A stretch of DNA of 44,056 nucleotides from an uncultured Oscillospiraceae bacterium (GTDB lineage: Bacteria > Bacillota > Clostridia > Oscillospirales > Oscillospiraceae), in NCBI GenBank assembly GCA_905235655.1, contig CAJOMA010000002.1, positions 1 to 44,056 of the forward strand. The letters run 5' to 3'. A program made the translations under genes and the position numbers. The notes beneath the pieces were generated by a model. The model was given only the letters and a program-made list of their open reading frames with translations, searched no databases and had not been told where the DNA came from. Shown here piece after piece: positions 35,578-43,943 of this stretch (the stretch's first letter is position 1; the number at the start of each line of letters is the position of its first letter).

Positions 35578-37638
35578 CTATTGCTCTTCCCTGCCGGGCA
35601 GATGGCTCAAAACGGCTCCGTAGTAGTCGCATTCCAGCACGACGTCGGAGAAGGTGATCTTATTGCGGACGATCGCGGCGATCTGATCCCGGTAGTCCTC
35701 TCCCAGCTCATAGCCCTCGGCGGGAATAAACTGACCGGTCGCGCCGTTATAGGTCGCATACTCCGTCTTCCAGCTATAGTCGTTCCAGAGCACCAGCGGC
35801 ATCTGATCGGAGAAGACGTCTCTGCCGACAAACATGCGCGAATCGTACTCCACGCCGAAGAGGTTGGAAAGCGTCGGCAGAATATCGAGGCTGAAGGTCG
35901 GCGCGTCCACCTGCAGGTTCATTCCCTCCAGACAGCCGCTCCAGATGATCAGCGCCGTACTGTCGCGGTCGAAGCAGGTTCTGACCGGATGCCCGTACAG
36001 CTCGTCCAGATAGTTCTCGCCGCTCGACCATGCGTAGCTCGGCTCCAGACCGTAGGGATAGTGGTCGGGGCTGATCACAATGACCGTATCGTCCGCAATC
36101 CCCGCGTCCTCCAGCATTTGGAGCAGGCTCGTCATCGCGTTTTCCAGCTCGATGTTGGCGGCGTGGTAGCATTTAACGTGCTCCGACCAGTCCTCGTTTT
36201 CCACGACGTGATAGTTTTTCCGCGACATGGCGTTGCTGCCGTAGTTATAGGCGCAATGCCCGCTGATGCTCATGTAATACACGCTGAACGGCTGATGGTC
36301 GATAAACTGCGGCGCCGTGTATTCGATCATTTCCTGATCGCTCTCCGGCCATGTGGACTGCACGCCCTGCTCCAGTCCGTTGCCCACGGCGTAGAAATTG
36401 TCATAGCCGATCATGCAGTGCGTCCGGTGCCGTTCATAATAGGTATATTCGCCGTTGTGGTAGGAGACGGAGAAATAGCCCTGCGCACGTAACTGGTTGC
36501 CGATGGTCAGATCGTTGTGGTTATAGATCATGTTTTTGATGCTTGCAACGCTGTTGGTCGGCACGATGCCGTAAAGGTTGGAGAACTCCCCCGTCGAGGT
36601 GCTTCCGCCCCACGCCGGCTGATAATAGTCCGTGAAATAAATGCCCTCGTGCGCCATGCGGTAGAGCGTCGGCGTGCGCACCGGGTCGATGACCTCCTTG
36701 GTAAAGGCTTCCGCAGTGATCAGGATCAGGTTTTTCCCCGCAAACATGCCGGTGTACGGGTTTTCCGAGGCGGGCGTCTGCGAACGGTGCGCCGAGGCGA
36801 TCCGGTCGTTCCATTCCTCGTCCGCCAGCGCGGCATAGTCGATATCAAACTCATGCAGACCGTAGACAACGGTTTCCTCCGTCGGCTCTGTCGCTTCTTC
36901 GGTCGGCGCGTCCGACCGCTCAGTCGGCTCCGTTGCGGGCGTCGTCTTCTTTGTCGGCGCTGTCGGCGCCTCGGAGGGCACAAAATCCGTGTTGGTGTTG
37001 CCGCCGCGGAAAATATCCAGCGTCAGCGCTTCGGAAAGACCGAAGGAACGAACCGCGCCGTCAAAGGTGTATTCCTCGTCATACTTTTTGGTGTCCGGAG
37101 AGACCGTGCGGATGAACAGCATACCGCCGAAGAAGCTGACGATCAGAAGCGAAGCGAGCACAACGCGCGTGATCCAGCTCCCCGTCCTGCCCCATTTGCC
37201 GAGGTGCCCCAGAAAACCGTAGAGCACAATCGGCAGCAGAACGACAATAATGCGCCAGAAGCCGTGCAGGATCAGCGTGACCAGCGTGTCGCCGAAGCCG
37301 CCCGCCACGTCTCCGGCGTTGCCGAAAATGTCCGACAGAATCATGAAGGTCTTGAAGGAATCCTGAATAAAGAATTCCAGCAGCGTGAAGAACGCGAAAA
37401 TCCCGGAGAAGACCAGCGCCAGAATCCGGCTGAGCCTTGCGGAGCTGCCGATCGTGGTCAGCAGCGCAAAAACAATGCCGAAGAACAGCGCGCACACCAA
37501 TACGGTGACGAGCCGGGAAAACACCAGCTCCCGCGGCGTCCAGATATGCAGGATGAATTCATCGAATACCACCGCACAGAGCATGAACAGCCATGCGGGG
37601 ATATTGATTTTCTCCATCCATGCGCTCAGTTTCTTCAT
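35578..37638 (-). CDS. LTA-synthase-family membrane sulfatase
   Basis: N-terminal TM helices; NLILITAEAFTKEVIDPVRTPTLYRMAHEGIYFTDYYQPAWGGSTSTGEFSNLYGIVPT...VIVISPDHYPYGLE; TEPTE-rich linker. Confidence 0.9.
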   Translation of the reverse strand: MKKLSAWMEKINIPAWLFMLCAVVFDEFILHIWTPRELVFSRLVTVLVCALFFGIVFALLTTIGSSARLSRILALVFSGIFAFFTLLEFFIQDSFKTFMILSDIFGNAGDVAGGFGDTLVTLILHGFWRIIVVLLPIVLYGFLGHLGKWGRTGSWITRVVLASLLIVSFFGGMLFIRTVSPDTKKYDEEYTFDGAVRSFGLSEALTLDIFRGGNTNTDFVPSEAPTAPTKKTTPATEPTERSDAPTEEATEPTEETVVYGLHEFDIDYAALADEEWNDRIASAHRSQTPASENPYTGMFAGKNLILITAEAFTKEVIDPVRTPTLYRMAHEGIYFTDYYQPAWGGSTSTGEFSNLYGIVPTNSVASIKNMIYNHNDLTIGNQLRAQGYFSVSYHNGEYTYYERHRTHCMIGYDNFYAVGNGLEQGVQSTWPESDQEMIEYTAPQFIDHQPFSVYYMSISGHCAYNYGSNAMSRKNYHVVENEDWSEHVKCYHAANIELENAMTSLLQMLEDAGIADDTVIVISPDHYPYGLEPSYAWSSGENYLDELYGHPVRTCFDRDSTALIIWSGCLEGMNLQVDAPTFSLDILPTLSNLFGVEYDSRMFVGRDVFSDQMPLVLWNDYSWKTEYATYNGATGQFIPAEGYELGEDYRDQIAAIVRNKITFSDVVLECDYYGAVLSHLPGREEQ

Positions 37639-37976: not shown

Positions 37977-38076
37977 ATAGAATCATAGAATTAGGCAACC
38001 GTCCGCAGACCGGCGCATACCGTTCTTTTGAGCGGACACACCGAGGCGCATGCCGCAATCGGAAAGGACAGACGGA

Positions 38077-38859
38077 ATGAAAGTTGCTTATGCGGGTATC
38101 GACCTGCTTGCGCCCGCGCTGGAGACGCTGATCGCGCAGGGCTGCGAGATCATGCAGGTTTTCACCTGCAAAACCGATAACATTACGGAGTTCAATTTCA
38201 GGGTCAGAGCCCTTGCCGCGCGCCATGGCATTCCCTGCACGGACGAGCGCATTCGGCGCGCCGATCTGGAGCGGCTGCGCGCGGAGGGCTGCGAGCTGTT
38301 TCTCTGCGGCGGCTACTATCATCTGATCCCCATTGTCGGCGGTCTTCCCATGGTAAACATCCATCCGGCGTATCTGCCGGAGGGTCGCGGCGCATGGCCG
38401 ATGCCCGTCGCCATAGCGCGCGGTCTGAAGCAAAGCGGCGTGACCCTGCACAAGATGGACGCCGCCTTCGACACGGGCGACATCCTTCTTCAGCGCGCCT
38501 TTCCCCTTCTGCCGGATGAAAATCTGCAGACCTTTATGGAAAAGCTGCGCGGTTTCCTGCCGGAGCTGGTCACAGAGCTGATTTCGGATTTGCCCGGCGT
38601 CATGGCGCGCGCCGTGCCACAAGGCGCGGGGAGCTACTGGGCATGCCCCACGGAAAAGGACTGGACGGTCACGAGTGAAATGACGGCGGCGCAAGCCGAC
38701 CTGATCCTGCGCGCATTCTACGGCTATGAATGCGTTTATCTGCACGGAAATGAAAAATATGAAATGATTCGGGGCTGCGTCACAGACAGAAAGACGCCTT
38801 ATCCGGTAAAAGACGGATACCTTCGCGCCGAAAAGATCAGAAAGCTGACGGATGCATGA
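38077..38859 (+). CDS. Formyltransferase-family protein (methionyl-tRNA formyltransferase-like fold)
   Basis: MKVAYAGIDLLAPALETLIAQGCEIMQVFT...LFLCGGYYHLIPIVGGLPMVNIHPAYLPEGRGAWPMPVAIARG...DAAFDTGDILLQ; NIHP...LPxGRG and DTGDI motifs. Confidence 0.87.
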   Translation: MKVAYAGIDLLAPALETLIAQGCEIMQVFTCKTDNITEFNFRVRALAARHGIPCTDERIRRADLERLRAEGCELFLCGGYYHLIPIVGGLPMVNIHPAYLPEGRGAWPMPVAIARGLKQSGVTLHKMDAAFDTGDILLQRAFPLLPDENLQTFMEKLRGFLPELVTELISDLPGVMARAVPQGAGSYWACPTEKDWTVTSEMTAAQADLILRAFYGYECVYLHGNEKYEMIRGCVTDRKTPYPVKDGYLRAEKIRKLTDA

Positions 38860-39728
38860 GAGAAAAAACAAGCCTGATCACTGCTGACTGCCGTGAAAAA
38901 ATGGAACATCTGCGCAACATGAGCGGGAACGTTCTGTCCTCCCACGCCTTCGTATCGGTCTATCTCTGGCGGAAAGAAATGGGACTTTTCCTGATGATGC
39001 AGGAGGACTTTTACTCCGTCAAGTGCTTGTGGAAGGGCGAAAACGCATGGTTTTTCCCCTGCGGTACGGACAGCGGAAAAGAGCGCTTCATTTCCCGCCA
39101 TCTGGCAGAGCCGGATTTCAAGCTCTGCTATCTGACGGACAGAGACGTCGTCTTTCTGGGCGAGCATTATCCGGAGAAATTCCGCTGTCTGCGGGATGAC
39201 GCCTCCGACGAGTATATCTATGACCGCGAGGCGCATATCGCGCTTTCGGGCGGTGATTATGCCAACGTCCGCACGCAGCTCCATCGCGCGCAGAGGTCTT
39301 ACGCACTGCGCGCCGAGCCGCTGTCCGCAGAGAACCGTGACGCCGCGTTGGACGTCATTCTCGACTGGGCGAGCAAGCCGCACCCGCTTGCCCGCGGTCT
39401 CAGCGACGACGAGGTTGACGAGGAAGCGATCCAGAAGGCGGAGCTCCTGAAGCTCAGCGGCGTTCTCGTCTATGCCGACGGGGTCGCGCAGGCGGTCTGC
39501 GCAGGCTTCCCGCTCACAGAGGACACCTTCGACGTCTGCGTCGCCAAGTGCCGGCAAAATCTGCCCGGGCTGTCATATTACGCAAAGCACGCGCTGTTCC
39601 GGTCTCTGGAGCCGCGCTTCCGCTACGTCAATCTGGAGGAGGACCTCGGCATCCCCGGTCTGCGGCAGATGAAGCAGATTCTCTCACCCGTGCGAATGAA
39701 CGAATTGTGGGAGGCGGTGCTGCTGTGA
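38856..39728 (+). CDS. DUF2156 / phosphatidylglycerol-lysyltransferase-like (GNAT-fold) protein
   Basis: HAFVSVYLWRKEMGLFLMMQEDFYSVK...FPCGTDSGKERFI...YIYDREAHIALSGGDYANVRTQLHRAQR...YVNLEEDLGIPGLRQMKQILSPVRM. Confidence 0.83.
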   Translation: MREKTSLITADCREKMEHLRNMSGNVLSSHAFVSVYLWRKEMGLFLMMQEDFYSVKCLWKGENAWFFPCGTDSGKERFISRHLAEPDFKLCYLTDRDVVFLGEHYPEKFRCLRDDASDEYIYDREAHIALSGGDYANVRTQLHRAQRSYALRAEPLSAENRDAALDVILDWASKPHPLARGLSDDEVDEEAIQKAELLKLSGVLVYADGVAQAVCAGFPLTEDTFDVCVAKCRQNLPGLSYYAKHALFRSLEPRFRYVNLEEDLGIPGLRQMKQILSPVRMNELWEAVLL

Positions 39729-41458
39729 ACAAGTTCCGTGATCGCTTTACCGCCAAGATGTACCGCCGCCTGTATCTCCCCTCCCTGCTGACTGCCATCG
39801 GGCTTGCCTTCGCCGACATGGCCGACGCGCTTGTAGTCGGCAGGAACATGGGCGCGACGGGTCTTGCCTCGATCAGTCTGGCGCTGCCGGTCTATATGGT
39901 CATCAATCTCTTTATGCACAGCTTGGGCGCAGGCGGCTCCGTGCGCTACTCCAAGCTGCTCGGCGAGGGCAAATTAGAGCTGGCGCAGAAGTGCTATACC
40001 GTTATCCTCCGCACCGCGCTTGCCGTCAGCGTTCTGTTGGCGGTGCTCGGAAACGTCTTCCTCGAGCCTCTGCTGCGCGTTCTCGGCGCGATCAAGGAGG
40101 AAAATCCCGCGCTGTATCAGGCAAGCCGCGCGTATCTGCAAATCATCGTCAGCGGCATTCCCCTGTTCTTCTTCGCGTACATACTGAACTATTTTCTCCG
40201 CAATGACGACAACCAACGTCTTGCAAGCGTTGCCTTCATCATCGGCAACTGCGTGGATGTCGCGCTGAATTTCGTCTTTGTTCTGATTCTGGACTGGGGC
40301 GTCGCGGGCGCCGCATGGTCGACGCTGATCGGCTACTGCGTGACCATCTGTCTGTATCTTCCCGGTCTGCTGTCCAAAAAGCATTCTCTCAAGCTGCGCA
40401 GAGCGAGGTCCGCTCCGAAGGAAGCGCTGTCGTGCTTTGCCTCCGGCTTCTCCGTCTCGTCTCAGTATCTGCTGCAGATGATCTTCCTGATTATTGTGAA
40501 CAACGTCCTGCTGCGGATGATGCGCAACGAAAACGGCGTGGCGGTATTTGACATGCTGCAGAACATGTCGTTCCTTGTATTATACCAATATGACGCCTCT
40601 GCAAAGGCCGCCCAGCCTCTGATCAGCACCTACTGCGGCGAGCAAAACAAGACCGGTCAGCAAAATGCGATGCGCCTTGCGCTGATCACAGGCACGATTT
40701 CCGGCGGTTTCATTGTCTCGCTGATCTGCATTTTCCCCGTATTCGTCTGCCGCCTGTTCGGTCTGAAGGAGGCGGGGATCATCGAGCTGGCAAAGCCTGC
40801 GATTTGGATCTTCTGCCTGAGTCTTCCCGCTGCCGGCATCAGCACGATTCTGGAAAGCGGCTATCAGGCGAGCGATCGTGAAAGGGCGGGCTTCACCGTG
40901 GCGCTGCTGCGCGGCGGTTTGATCCTTCTGCCAATGACGCTGCTGTTCTCCGTGATCGGAAACCCGAGGATATTCTGGTGGCTGTTCCCTGCCACGGAAT
41001 ACCTCTCGCTCATTCTTGCCCTGCTGATCGCGCCGCGCTTCCGGACGAAGCACCTGCCGGAGGAGCGCGTCCTCGCGCGGACAATCATGAACAAAAACGA
41101 GGACATTGGCGCGCTGACGCAGGAGGCGGCAGCCTTCTGTGAAAAATGGGAGGCCTCCGCAAAGCAAACCTTTTATGTGAGCATAACCATTGAAGAAATC
41201 TGCCTTGCCATTATGCAGAACGCCTTTGATCAGTCCGCCGACGGCTACATCCAGATGACGCTGGTCGCCATGCCGGACGGTGTGTTCGAGCTGCATATCC
41301 GCGATAACGCGACCGCGTTTGACCCGTTCTCTCTGGCCGAAAAGAGCGGCGAAGCGTTCAACATCGACGCTGCCGGCATGATAGTAATCAAGAACAAAGC
41401 GAAGGACTTTTTCTATCGCCGCTACCAAGGCTTTAACGCTCTGGTAGTCAGAGTCTGA
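39725..41458 (+). CDS. MATE-family transporter fused to a C-terminal HATPase/anti-sigma-kinase-like domain
   Basis: GTG start at 39725 overlapping upstream TGA; polytopic MATE region FADMADALVVGRNMGATGLASISLALPVYMVINLFMHSLGAGGSVRYSKLLGEG; C-terminal SITIEEICLAIMQNA...HIRDNATAFDPF...AAGMIVIKNKAKDFFYRRYQGFNALVV resembles HATPase N/G1/G2 boxes. Confidence 0.85.
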   Translation: MNKFRDRFTAKMYRRLYLPSLLTAIGLAFADMADALVVGRNMGATGLASISLALPVYMVINLFMHSLGAGGSVRYSKLLGEGKLELAQKCYTVILRTALAVSVLLAVLGNVFLEPLLRVLGAIKEENPALYQASRAYLQIIVSGIPLFFFAYILNYFLRNDDNQRLASVAFIIGNCVDVALNFVFVLILDWGVAGAAWSTLIGYCVTICLYLPGLLSKKHSLKLRRARSAPKEALSCFASGFSVSSQYLLQMIFLIIVNNVLLRMMRNENGVAVFDMLQNMSFLVLYQYDASAKAAQPLISTYCGEQNKTGQQNAMRLALITGTISGGFIVSLICIFPVFVCRLFGLKEAGIIELAKPAIWIFCLSLPAAGISTILESGYQASDRERAGFTVALLRGGLILLPMTLLFSVIGNPRIFWWLFPATEYLSLILALLIAPRFRTKHLPEERVLARTIMNKNEDIGALTQEAAAFCEKWEASAKQTFYVSITIEEICLAIMQNAFDQSADGYIQMTLVAMPDGVFELHIRDNATAFDPFSLAEKSGEAFNIDAAGMIVIKNKAKDFFYRRYQGFNALVVRV

Positions 41459-41474
41459 TGCAGGAGGAAAGTGG

Positions 41475-43565
41475 ATGAAGAATAACAAAAAAACGAGCCG
41501 TATCTCCATAAAGGTGCTCAGTATGATTCTGACGGTTGCGCTTCTGCTGTCCGGCGCGGCAGTGGCGTTCAGCTACATTTTCTACGGCAGAACGATGGAT
41601 AACCACTACCGGGAGCTGACGAGCAACATCGCAAAGAGCGCAGCAGACATGCTCAATCCGCAGGATGTCGATCACCTGACAAACGCCGTCATGCAAATCT
41701 ACCGCAGCCAAGTCGCCGCCGGAAACGGCCCCGACAGTGAGACGTTCGATGAGGCGGCCTACTATGCCGCATTCGCCGAAGTCAAAAACATGCAGGCGTA
41801 CCGGGATTGCTTGACCGTTCTGCAAAAGCTGGAGGATGACAATCAGGCAGACTGCCTCTATATCTGCTACATGGATCTGGAGACGGACAAGGCGGTGTAC
41901 ATCATCGACGCCGCGCACGAGGACGCCTGCGCGCCCGGCACCTGCGACGATTTTCTGCCGGAAAACCGCGCGCTGGCGGAAAAGGGAGACTACACCTTCC
42001 CCGCCTACATTACCAATTACGAAGAATACGGCTGGCTTTGCTCCGCCGCCTACGGCATCCGAAATGCCCACGGCAAATACATCGCCAACGCTTATGTTGA
42101 CTTCTCCATGACGCAGATCATGAACGAGCGGCACAGCTTCCTGAAATCGCTGATCCTTTTCCTGCTGCTGATCGCTGCGCTTTTGGCGACGCTCAACATC
42201 CTGTTCGTCCGAAAGACCATCGTGAAGCCGATCAATCAGCTTTCCAGCGCGGCGAGAAAATACGTCTCCGACCGCGACACCTCCGGTCCGTCGGAGATAT
42301 CGAAGCTGAACATCCACACGAGAGACGAAATTCAGACGCTGTCCGAGGACATCAAGCAGATGGAGGAAGACATCAACGTCTACATCGACAATCTTGCGCT
42401 CGTCAGCAGGGAGAAGGAACGCATCAGCGCTGAGCTGAACGTCGCCAAGCAGATTCAGGCGAGCGTCCTGCCCAGTACCTTCCCCGCCTTCCCCGAGCGC
42501 GAGGAATTCGACATCTATGCTATCATGAATCCGGCAAAGGAGGTCGGCGGCGACTTCTACGACTTCTTCTTTGTCGACGACGAGCACTTTGCCATTGTGA
42601 TGGCGGACGTTTCCGGCAAGGGCGTTCCCGCCGCGCTGTTTATGATGGCGGCAAAGAACCTGCTCAAGAGCAGCGCGCTGACGATGACCTCCCCGAAGGA
42701 CATTCTGGAGCGCGTGAACAAGCAGCTTTGCGAAAACAACGAGGCGGAGATGTTTGTCACCGTGTGGATCGGCATTCTGGATCTTTCCACGGGCAAAATG
42801 CTCGCAGCAAACGCAGGTCACGAATACCCGGCGATCCGCCGCAAGGACGGCATGTGGGAGCTGTACAAGGATAAGCACGGCTTTGTACTTGCGGGAATGG
42901 AAGCCGCAAGGTACAAAGAATACGAGCTGACGCTCCGGCCGGGCGATAAGCTCTTCCTCTATACGGACGGCGTAACGGAAGCGACCAACGCCTCCAATAC
43001 GCTCTACGGAACGGATCGGATGCTTGCCGCGCTGAATGCAGAGGCAGCCTCTGCGCCGAAAAATACGCTCCTTTCCCTGCGGCAGGATATCGACCGCTTC
43101 GTAAAGGAAGCGCCGCAGTTTGACGATATTACCATGCTCTGCTTTGAGCTCAAGGGCAGCGGCGCTACGGAAAAGACCTTGCGCGCAGAGACGAGCCAGA
43201 TCACGCCGGAGGAGGTGCACCGGTTCGTCGAGGAGCTCCTGACGCAGCACAACACGGCGCGCTCCTGCGCGACAAGGCTCTATATCGCGGTGGATGAGAT
43301 CGTCACAAACATTCTGCAATACAGCGGCGCGACAACGCTGGACGTCACCTGCAGCGTCGGCGCAGAAAAGATCACGATCGCATTTTCAGACGACGGCGTC
43401 CCCTATAATCCGCTGGAGAACGAGGATCCCGACGTGACTCTTCCCGCAGAGCAGCGCTCGATCGGCGGACTCGGCATCTTTATGGTAAAGAATACAATGG
43501 ACGCCGTGGACTATGCATACCGCGGCGGCAGAAACACTCTGACCGTTACGAAATATACGATATAA
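41475..43565 (+). CDS. SpoIIE/PP2C-family phosphatase: TM sensor-HAMP-PP2C plus C-terminal HATPase domain
   Basis: Two TMs flanking an extracytoplasmic domain; NVAKQIQASVLPSTFPAFPEREEFDIYAIMNPAKEVGGDFYDFFFVDDEHFAIVMADVSGKGVPAALFM; C-terminal DEIVTNILQYS...DDGVPYNPLE...GGLGIFMVKNTMD. Confidence 0.95.
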   Translation: MKNNKKTSRISIKVLSMILTVALLLSGAAVAFSYIFYGRTMDNHYRELTSNIAKSAADMLNPQDVDHLTNAVMQIYRSQVAAGNGPDSETFDEAAYYAAFAEVKNMQAYRDCLTVLQKLEDDNQADCLYICYMDLETDKAVYIIDAAHEDACAPGTCDDFLPENRALAEKGDYTFPAYITNYEEYGWLCSAAYGIRNAHGKYIANAYVDFSMTQIMNERHSFLKSLILFLLLIAALLATLNILFVRKTIVKPINQLSSAARKYVSDRDTSGPSEISKLNIHTRDEIQTLSEDIKQMEEDINVYIDNLALVSREKERISAELNVAKQIQASVLPSTFPAFPEREEFDIYAIMNPAKEVGGDFYDFFFVDDEHFAIVMADVSGKGVPAALFMMAAKNLLKSSALTMTSPKDILERVNKQLCENNEAEMFVTVWIGILDLSTGKMLAANAGHEYPAIRRKDGMWELYKDKHGFVLAGMEAARYKEYELTLRPGDKLFLYTDGVTEATNASNTLYGTDRMLAALNAEAASAPKNTLLSLRQDIDRFVKEAPQFDDITMLCFELKGSGATEKTLRAETSQITPEEVHRFVEELLTQHNTARSCATRLYIAVDEIVTNILQYSGATTLDVTCSVGAEKITIAFSDDGVPYNPLENEDPDVTLPAEQRSIGGLGIFMVKNTMDAVDYAYRGGRNTLTVTKYTI

Positions 43566-43592
43566 TTTTGAATAAAAAAGGAGAAGGTTCAA

Positions 43593-43892
43593 ATGGTTAT
43601 CACGAAAAATACAGAAGGCGAAAAGCTGACATTGCATGTTCAGGGACGTCTGGACACCACCACCGCGCCGCAGTTGGAAGCAGAGCTGAAATCCAGTCTC
43701 ACCGGCGTCAGCGAGCTCGTGCTTGACTTCGCGGAGCTGGAGTATATCTCCTCCGCCGGTCTTCGCGTCCTGCTCTCCACACAGAAGATCATGAGCCGTC
43801 AGGGCAGCATGATCGTTCGCCATGTGAACGAGGATATCATGGACGTGTTCGAGCTGACAGGCTTCGCAGACATCCTGACGATCGAAAAATAA
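43593..43892 (+). CDS. STAS-domain anti-sigma factor antagonist
   Basis: LTLHVQGRLDTTTAPQLEAELKSSLTGVSELVLDFAELEYISSAGLRVLLSTQKIM; canonical SpoIIAA/RsbV-like protein with YISSAGLRVLL phosphoacceptor motif. Confidence 0.95.
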   Translation: MVITKNTEGEKLTLHVQGRLDTTTAPQLEAELKSSLTGVSELVLDFAELEYISSAGLRVLLSTQKIMSRQGSMIVRHVNEDIMDVFELTGFADILTIEK

Positions 43893-43911: not shown

Positions 43912-43943
43912 AAAAGGCAGACACTTGATCGTGTCTGCCTTTT
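43912..43943 (+). terminator. Intrinsic terminator after the STAS gene
   Basis: AAAAGGCAGACAC-TTGATC-GTGTCTGCCTTTT. Confidence 0.9.

Follow-up and report, generated by a model that had tools for sequence, protein, structure and literature searches.

Partner switching is textbook sigma-factor control, and few other outputs are known. The locus analyzed here raises the question of what such a switch controls when its HATPase, PP2C and STAS components are encoded next to a transporter. It lies in a window of 44,056 nucleotides, which is an entire contig of the 1.6 Mb, 95% complete assembly of an uncultured Oscillospiraceae bacterium, and it comprises five genes (Table 1). A first-pass annotation, made from the sequence alone, proposed that the switch may gate the transporter rather than transcription. 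We regard as rather probable a partner switch whose output is the transporter and which acts through a degenerate HATPase domain.

The five ORFs were verified on the plus strand, and their starts, overlaps and domains agreed with those previously annotated. The DUF2156 gene overlaps the stop codon of the formyltransferase (FMT) gene (ATGA, 38856) and the start of the MATE gene (GTGA, 39725), whilst Shine-Dalgarno sequences lie upstream of the PP2C gene (AGGAGGAAAG, start at 41475) and the STAS gene (AAGGAGAAGG, start at 43593). FMT may alternatively start at an in-frame ATG, at 38050. Pfam and NCBIfam searches upheld the domain calls of the five proteins, with Pfam matches to Formyl_trans_N (4e-17), LPG_synthase_C (DUF2156; 1.5e-20), MatE (8.5e-33) plus HATPase_c_2 (3.9e-7, above the gathering cut-off), SpoIIE (1e-49) plus HATPase_c_2 (5.8e-18), and STAS (8e-15); a HAMP match in the PP2C protein fell under its cut-off. 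Concerning the 3' end of the operon, the hairpin that had been called an intrinsic terminator is visible (GGCAGACAC-TTGATC-GTGTCTGCC-TTTT), but its tail consists of four T only and a terminator consensus scan did not flag it, so that this function is plausible rather than firm. The contig ends at 44056, and the sequence past the operon is unreadable here.

Table 1. Features of the five-gene operon in the window
Feature	Position	Strand	Description
Formyltransferase (FMT)	38077..38859	+	260 aa; Formyl_trans_N; catalytic N-H-D triad (VNIHP, DTGDI)
DUF2156 / LPG_synthase_C protein	38856..39728	+	290 aa; tandem-GNAT fold of aminoacyl-tRNA-dependent transferases
MATE transporter with C-terminal degenerate HATPase	39725..41458	+	577 aa
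GHKL/HATPase_c_2 domain at MATE C-terminus	41063..41455	+	residues 447-577; predicted cytosolic
N-box of MATE-borne HATPase, EEICLAIMQNAF	41192..41227	+	Glu-Glu retained; Ala in place of Mg-binding Asn
Membrane sensor-linker-PP2C (SpoIIE)-HATPase_c_2	41475..43565	+	696 aa; N-box DEIVTN, SDDG, GGLG
STAS protein	43593..43892	+	99 aa; candidate phospho-acceptor Ser54 (YISSAGL)
Terminator-like hairpin 3' of STAS	43916..43943	+	9-bp GC-rich stem plus A/T pairs, 6-nt loop, TTTT

The annotation had made its proposal depend on the conservation of this neighbourhood. A first genome scan with the single MATE-HATPase protein as query gave no match, and a family alignment was required. When 60 relatives were searched with the full protein, two strong homologues emerged (40-50% identity), one of them with a broken frame, and a profile of the fused HATPase, run on 394 genomes of the order to which the window genome belongs, found about 50 MATE-HATPase fusions. 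The same five genes occur together in one genome (G036) in the order STAS, FMT, DUF2156, MATE-HATPase, PP2C-HATPase; at the locus of another (G054) a GNAT gene is present and FMT is absent. A second profile scan, of 84,980 species genomes, revealed 131 relatives of the window's own MATE-HATPase subfamily (class A) in Lachnospiraceae, Oscillospiraceae, Butyrivibrio, Oscillibacter, Flavonifractor and others, from which the best 80 were kept. Among the loci of these best 80 of 131, PP2C was found in 77, DUF2156 in 58 and FMT in 54; a canonical HATPase kinase accompanies 49 of them and a STAS gene 43. These counts are lower bounds because several contigs are short (the fetched DNA showed no STAS in 37 loci and no kinase in 31). 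Clustering of all neighbours in the same 80 loci yielded no other gene of similar frequency.

For the MATE-HATPase fusions of the order, plain MATE proteins found with the same query (n = 30) served as the comparison set. Any of STAS, PP2C or HATPase lay within 4 kb of 38/54 fused MATEs versus 1/30 plain MATEs (Fisher 5e-10, a test that is indicative because the loci are related and not independent), and the sole plain MATE with a switch gene nearby adjoins STAS and a sigma gene. In a midpoint-rooted tree the 135 fused MATEs formed one clade against the 30 plain MATEs, with a support of 0.84. The neighbourhood is thus kept across genera and families, as the annotation required. That the genes are unrelated and met by chance in the window MAG would agree with the presence of the gene set in few near relatives of the same genus, yet it is extremely improbable in view of this breadth, of the gene fusions and of the motif conservation, and it is refuted by the contrast between fused and plain MATEs together with the class A neighbour counts. 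We are close to certain that the conserved module is real and goes beyond a chance cluster.

The transporter itself shows the MatE domains, the 12 transmembrane helices and the fold of the MATE family. Its AlphaFold2 model (pLDDT 92.5) combines a MATE part of 12 helices with a C-terminal GHKL fold whose lid is poorly ordered, and its structure matches are PfMATE, DinF and others. With these members of the MOP superfamily it shares the fold, the Pfam domain and the structural matches, whereas the C-terminal HATPase and the associated switch genes set it apart. Among the matches listed, the full-length Foldseek search gave MATE/MOP proteins only, so the HATPase domain is assigned from Pfam, from profile comparison and from the topology of the model. 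The direct fusion of an HATPase-like domain to a MATE-type transporter, which the annotation had pointed out, is confirmed by Pfam, with MatE and HATPase_c_2 in one protein. Profile comparison relates this domain by homology to the kinases that its loci encode (hhalign, 97.6% probability, E 4e-12), and its best PDB matches, although weak (E about 0.01), are SpoIIAB and RsbW.

The MATE-borne domain has lost the N-box Asn that an active serine kinase needs for Mg-ATP. This Asn is missing in 80/80 class A members (the best 80 of 131), mostly replaced by Ala or Val, and Ala mostly takes the place of the G1 Gly; the Glu-Glu pair is retained, as is the G1 Asp in 82/83 MATE-borne HATPases. Three Asn-bearing sequences in the motif set proved to be second MATE-HATPases of another class. 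The canonical kinases of the same loci have the N-box Asn in 54/54 scorable cases and the G1 Asp and Gly in 57/57, and their G2 motif is also kept. Judging from these motifs, the class A domain is very unlikely to act as a kinase, and a role as the anti-sigma kinase, which the annotation had left open, was rejected for this class on the same motifs. The domain is nevertheless under purifying selection, without decay, and is conserved as well as the transporter: mean identity within class A is 46% for the HATPase and 40% for the MATE part, and omega lies at about 0.03-0.36 in the pairs printed for the domain. A degenerate and constrained HATPase is the pattern that a receptor derived from a kinase should present. 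The loss of Asn is not universal among MATE-HATPase classes. In class B, represented in the window genome by a gene on contig C4, the N-box Asn is retained and many of the intact proteins stand alone; such fusions may still bind ATP.

The other switch proteins carry the expected motifs. The window PP2C protein has the metal-site motifs GGDFYD, MADVSGKG, YTDG and DDIT, which are conserved in the family, and the N, G1 and G2 boxes of a kinase at its end (DEIVTN, SDDG and GGLG); it is predicted to join a phosphatase of phosphorylated STAS to a canonical STAS kinase. A phosphorylatable Ser occupies the Ser54 position in 44/45 STAS proteins of the family. Kinase, phosphatase and STAS thus have the sequence marks of a putative STAS partner-switching module. 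The PP2C and kinase form one fused membrane protein in the window and the kinase is separate in many relatives. Relatives without a local STAS encode STAS proteins elsewhere in the genome and most have canonical kinases elsewhere; no stand-alone canonical kinase was seen in one Butyrivibrio genome (G817), a MAG that may be incomplete.

Phospho-Ser STAS, canonical HATPase serine kinase and PP2C phosphatase are shared with RsbU/V/W and SpoIIE/SpoIIAA/SpoIIAB, whose RsbW and SpoIIAB are homologous to the MATE-borne domain. In the window locus, however, phosphatase and kinase share one membrane polypeptide, a further HATPase, degenerate, forms the tail of a transporter, and the cognate sigma factor that is the output of the RsbUVW and SpoIIA switches, and is usually encoded next to them, is missing from the operon. 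A PP2C, an HATPase kinase and a STAS protein with a non-sigma output are likewise found in SiaABCD of Pseudomonas aeruginosa, and SiaA is the nearest NCBIfam model of the window PP2C protein, under its cut-off; the output there is an enzyme, the diguanylate cyclase SiaD, whereas no such gene is among the five of the window. In Bordetella the BtrU/V/W proteins (STAS, kinase and phosphatase) control type III secretion partly after transcription (PMC8256260), but no fusion of an HATPase to the export machine is described there and the transporter is unrelated.

Most STAS switches known so far act on sigma factors (PMC8256260), and in some genomes the STAS and kinase genes lie away from MATE. Both facts would suit an ordinary transcriptional switch in which STAS, PP2C and HATPase have as their target a sigma factor or another regulator whose gene lies elsewhere, the MATE gene being merely co-transcribed and its HATPase tail having another role. 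We looked for sigma factors at three levels. None is encoded among the five genes, in agreement with the annotation for the window; none recurs as a class A neighbour, a sigma-like gene being present in the fetched DNA of only 2 of the best 80 of 131 loci; and in the window genome only SigF, SigG, SigK and ECF types were found. The conserved neighbouring sigma factor that the annotation had named as evidence against its proposal was not seen. A hidden SigB-type sigma factor as target of the switch was also searched for in this genome and not found, an absence that is likely rather than proven since the assembly is 95% complete. SigF has its own SpoIIAA/AB, the set being split over contigs C61 and C28; the genome also has a STAS-PP2C pair on C15. 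Together with the constrained, transporter-fused homologue of the switch kinases, these observations make a transcriptional output unlikely.

For a switch that acts on the transporter, the following sequence of events can be proposed. The membrane sensor of the PP2C protein would perceive an external signal, and the PP2C and the canonical HATPase kinase would set the phosphorylation of STAS at Ser54. One form of STAS, most likely the unphosphorylated one, would then dock on the degenerate HATPase at the MATE C-terminus, which, without the Mg-binding Asn, should not phosphorylate STAS and would serve as the receptor by which the exporter is opened or closed. Of the original proposal, the action of the switch on the transporter has gained support from the grouping of the fusions in one clade and from the kinase Asn being lost throughout class A; the gating step we infer. 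PP2C is a more constant partner than STAS (77/80 versus 43/80 loci), so that STAS perhaps acts from another part of the genome, or is not itself the direct effector. This difference, with the retained G1 Asp, would fit a MATE-borne HATPase that acts alone or with PP2C directly, as a nucleotide or energy sensor or a PP2C scaffold, STAS not touching the transporter. Such a role appears quite unlikely, because a domain that lacks the Mg-binding Asn in every class A member, and the G1 Gly in most, speaks against ATP use, and canonical STAS kinases are present in many of the same loci.

The two enzymes of the operon bear on what a transporter so controlled would export. The N, H and D residues of the N10-formyl-THF formyltransferase triad are conserved in 49/49 FMT family members. 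The DUF2156 protein (AlphaFold2 model, pLDDT 96) adopts the tandem-GNAT fold of LPG synthase and FemX, with matches to 2hqy, L-PGS 4v36, MprF, FemX and the aminoacyl-tRNA-dependent peptide synthase Sbb17. In MprF / L-PGS a synthase and a flippase-like transporter adjoin as they do here, but the window has separate proteins, with a MATE in place of the MprF flippase domain and FMT or GNAT in addition, and the likeness is one of fold. FMT and DUF2156 are fused into single proteins in five class A loci (L188, L189, L195, L221 and L229), which argues for action in succession. Of the best 80 of 131 class A loci, 54 have FMT, 14 have a GNAT (Acetyltransf_9) and none has both (6e-9, uncorrected for descent), and GNAT has replaced FMT in two or more distinct regions of the tree. 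FMT would formylate an amine, the acetyltransferase taking its place in relatives, and formyl and acetyl may be interchangeable caps. DUF2156, co-transcribed with the transporter gene, probably makes the cargo together with FMT or, in relatives, with the acetyltransferase. The fusions strengthen the earlier suggestion that these enzymes may make the substrate.

We tentatively extend this reading to a widespread signalling class of gut Clostridia, in which degenerate HATPases (pseudo-kinases related to RsbW and SpoIIAB) on MATE exporters would be direct outputs of STAS switches and would gate the export of an aminoacyl compound, N-formylated or N-acetylated, that is made by the pair of DUF2156 with FMT or GNAT; this is possible, though less than even in our estimate. 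In the open-licence literature we found no description of a link between MATE and STAS/PP2C, of DUF2156 with a formyltransferase or of NHLM with STAS. If true, a switch wired to an exporter via a disabled kinase would show a kinase fold turning into an effector and would allow a MATE transporter to be gated post-translationally. The module also suggests that common gut bacteria make a conserved, still uncharacterised product.

NHLM export genes near class A loci indicate that the cargo could be a peptide. They were found in the fetched flanks of 12 of the best 80 of 131 loci, in seven within about 350 bp of the operon or switch genes and in some no more than 100 bp away on the same strand, against 0/27 plain-MATE loci; this is in a setting where the NHLM ABC gene scores above cut-off in only 11/197 genomes of the order, and STAS or PP2C likewise occurs near some NHLM clusters that have no MATE. 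The operon could then be an accessory of RiPP (NHLM-type) systems, its switch and MATE regulating or finishing export of a ribosomal peptide decorated by FMT and DUF2156 rather than of a lipid or small aminoacyl conjugate. We consider this rather unlikely, as most class A loci have no NHLM genes nearby; the window operon is without HlyD/ABC genes of this type, and those of its genome sit on another contig (C1) with switch genes out of reach. A peptide cargo of this kind is compatible with a partner switch whose output is the transporter.

Class A operons, those in which the MATE-HATPase belongs to the window protein's own subfamily and has lost the N-box Asn, were repeatedly found adjoining NHLM RiPP export cassettes, both in the loci so listed in the table and in L206, L208 and L212. 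At L208 15706-19728, at least seven small ORFs lie in series and show a leader-type sequence with GG(C) at its end; they are likely precursors. STAS genes together with HATPase or PP2C genes were also located inside or close to NHLM clusters at L212:1-1686, L274 and L278, some of which have no MATE gene; RiPP export may thus be more generally under partner-switch control. By eye, L212 782-1378 looks like a further degenerate HATPase, for which a Pfam search gave no match.

Class B MATE-HATPases, which keep the Asn, are adjoined in four loci by a triple fusion of STAS, APH (an aminoglycoside-phosphotransferase-like kinase) and HATPase. A STAS-APH version occurs in class A loci L181, L182, L186, L197, L198 and L200.

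Coordinates (local to each locus) of NHLM cassettes and triple fusions
Feature	Locus	Position
NHLM RiPP export cassette	L179	3122-8060
NHLM RiPP export cassette	L182	14108-18985
NHLM RiPP export cassette	L218	12981-17881
NHLM RiPP export cassette	L222	2129-7081
NHLM RiPP export cassette	L255	2-3661
STAS-APH-HATPase triple fusion	L054	6590-8137
STAS-APH-HATPase triple fusion	L044	9809-11404
STAS-APH-HATPase triple fusion	L155	8952-10541
STAS-APH-HATPase triple fusion	L157	6730-8316

The window's genome (G000) encodes a second MATE-HATPase on contig C4 (L041:9695-11449), of class B with the N-box Asn intact and without adjoining switch genes, and an isolated STAS-PP2C pair on contig C15 (L085:2955-5422). 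In G036, a relative with all five genes, the MATE-HATPase (L040:8617-10298) is split: its reading frame changes and a stop lies inside it. The gene may be broken or wrongly assembled. Immediately upstream of the window operon, the minus strand (35578-37638) encodes a 686-aa membrane protein with a sulfatase domain and an LTA-synthase-like architecture.
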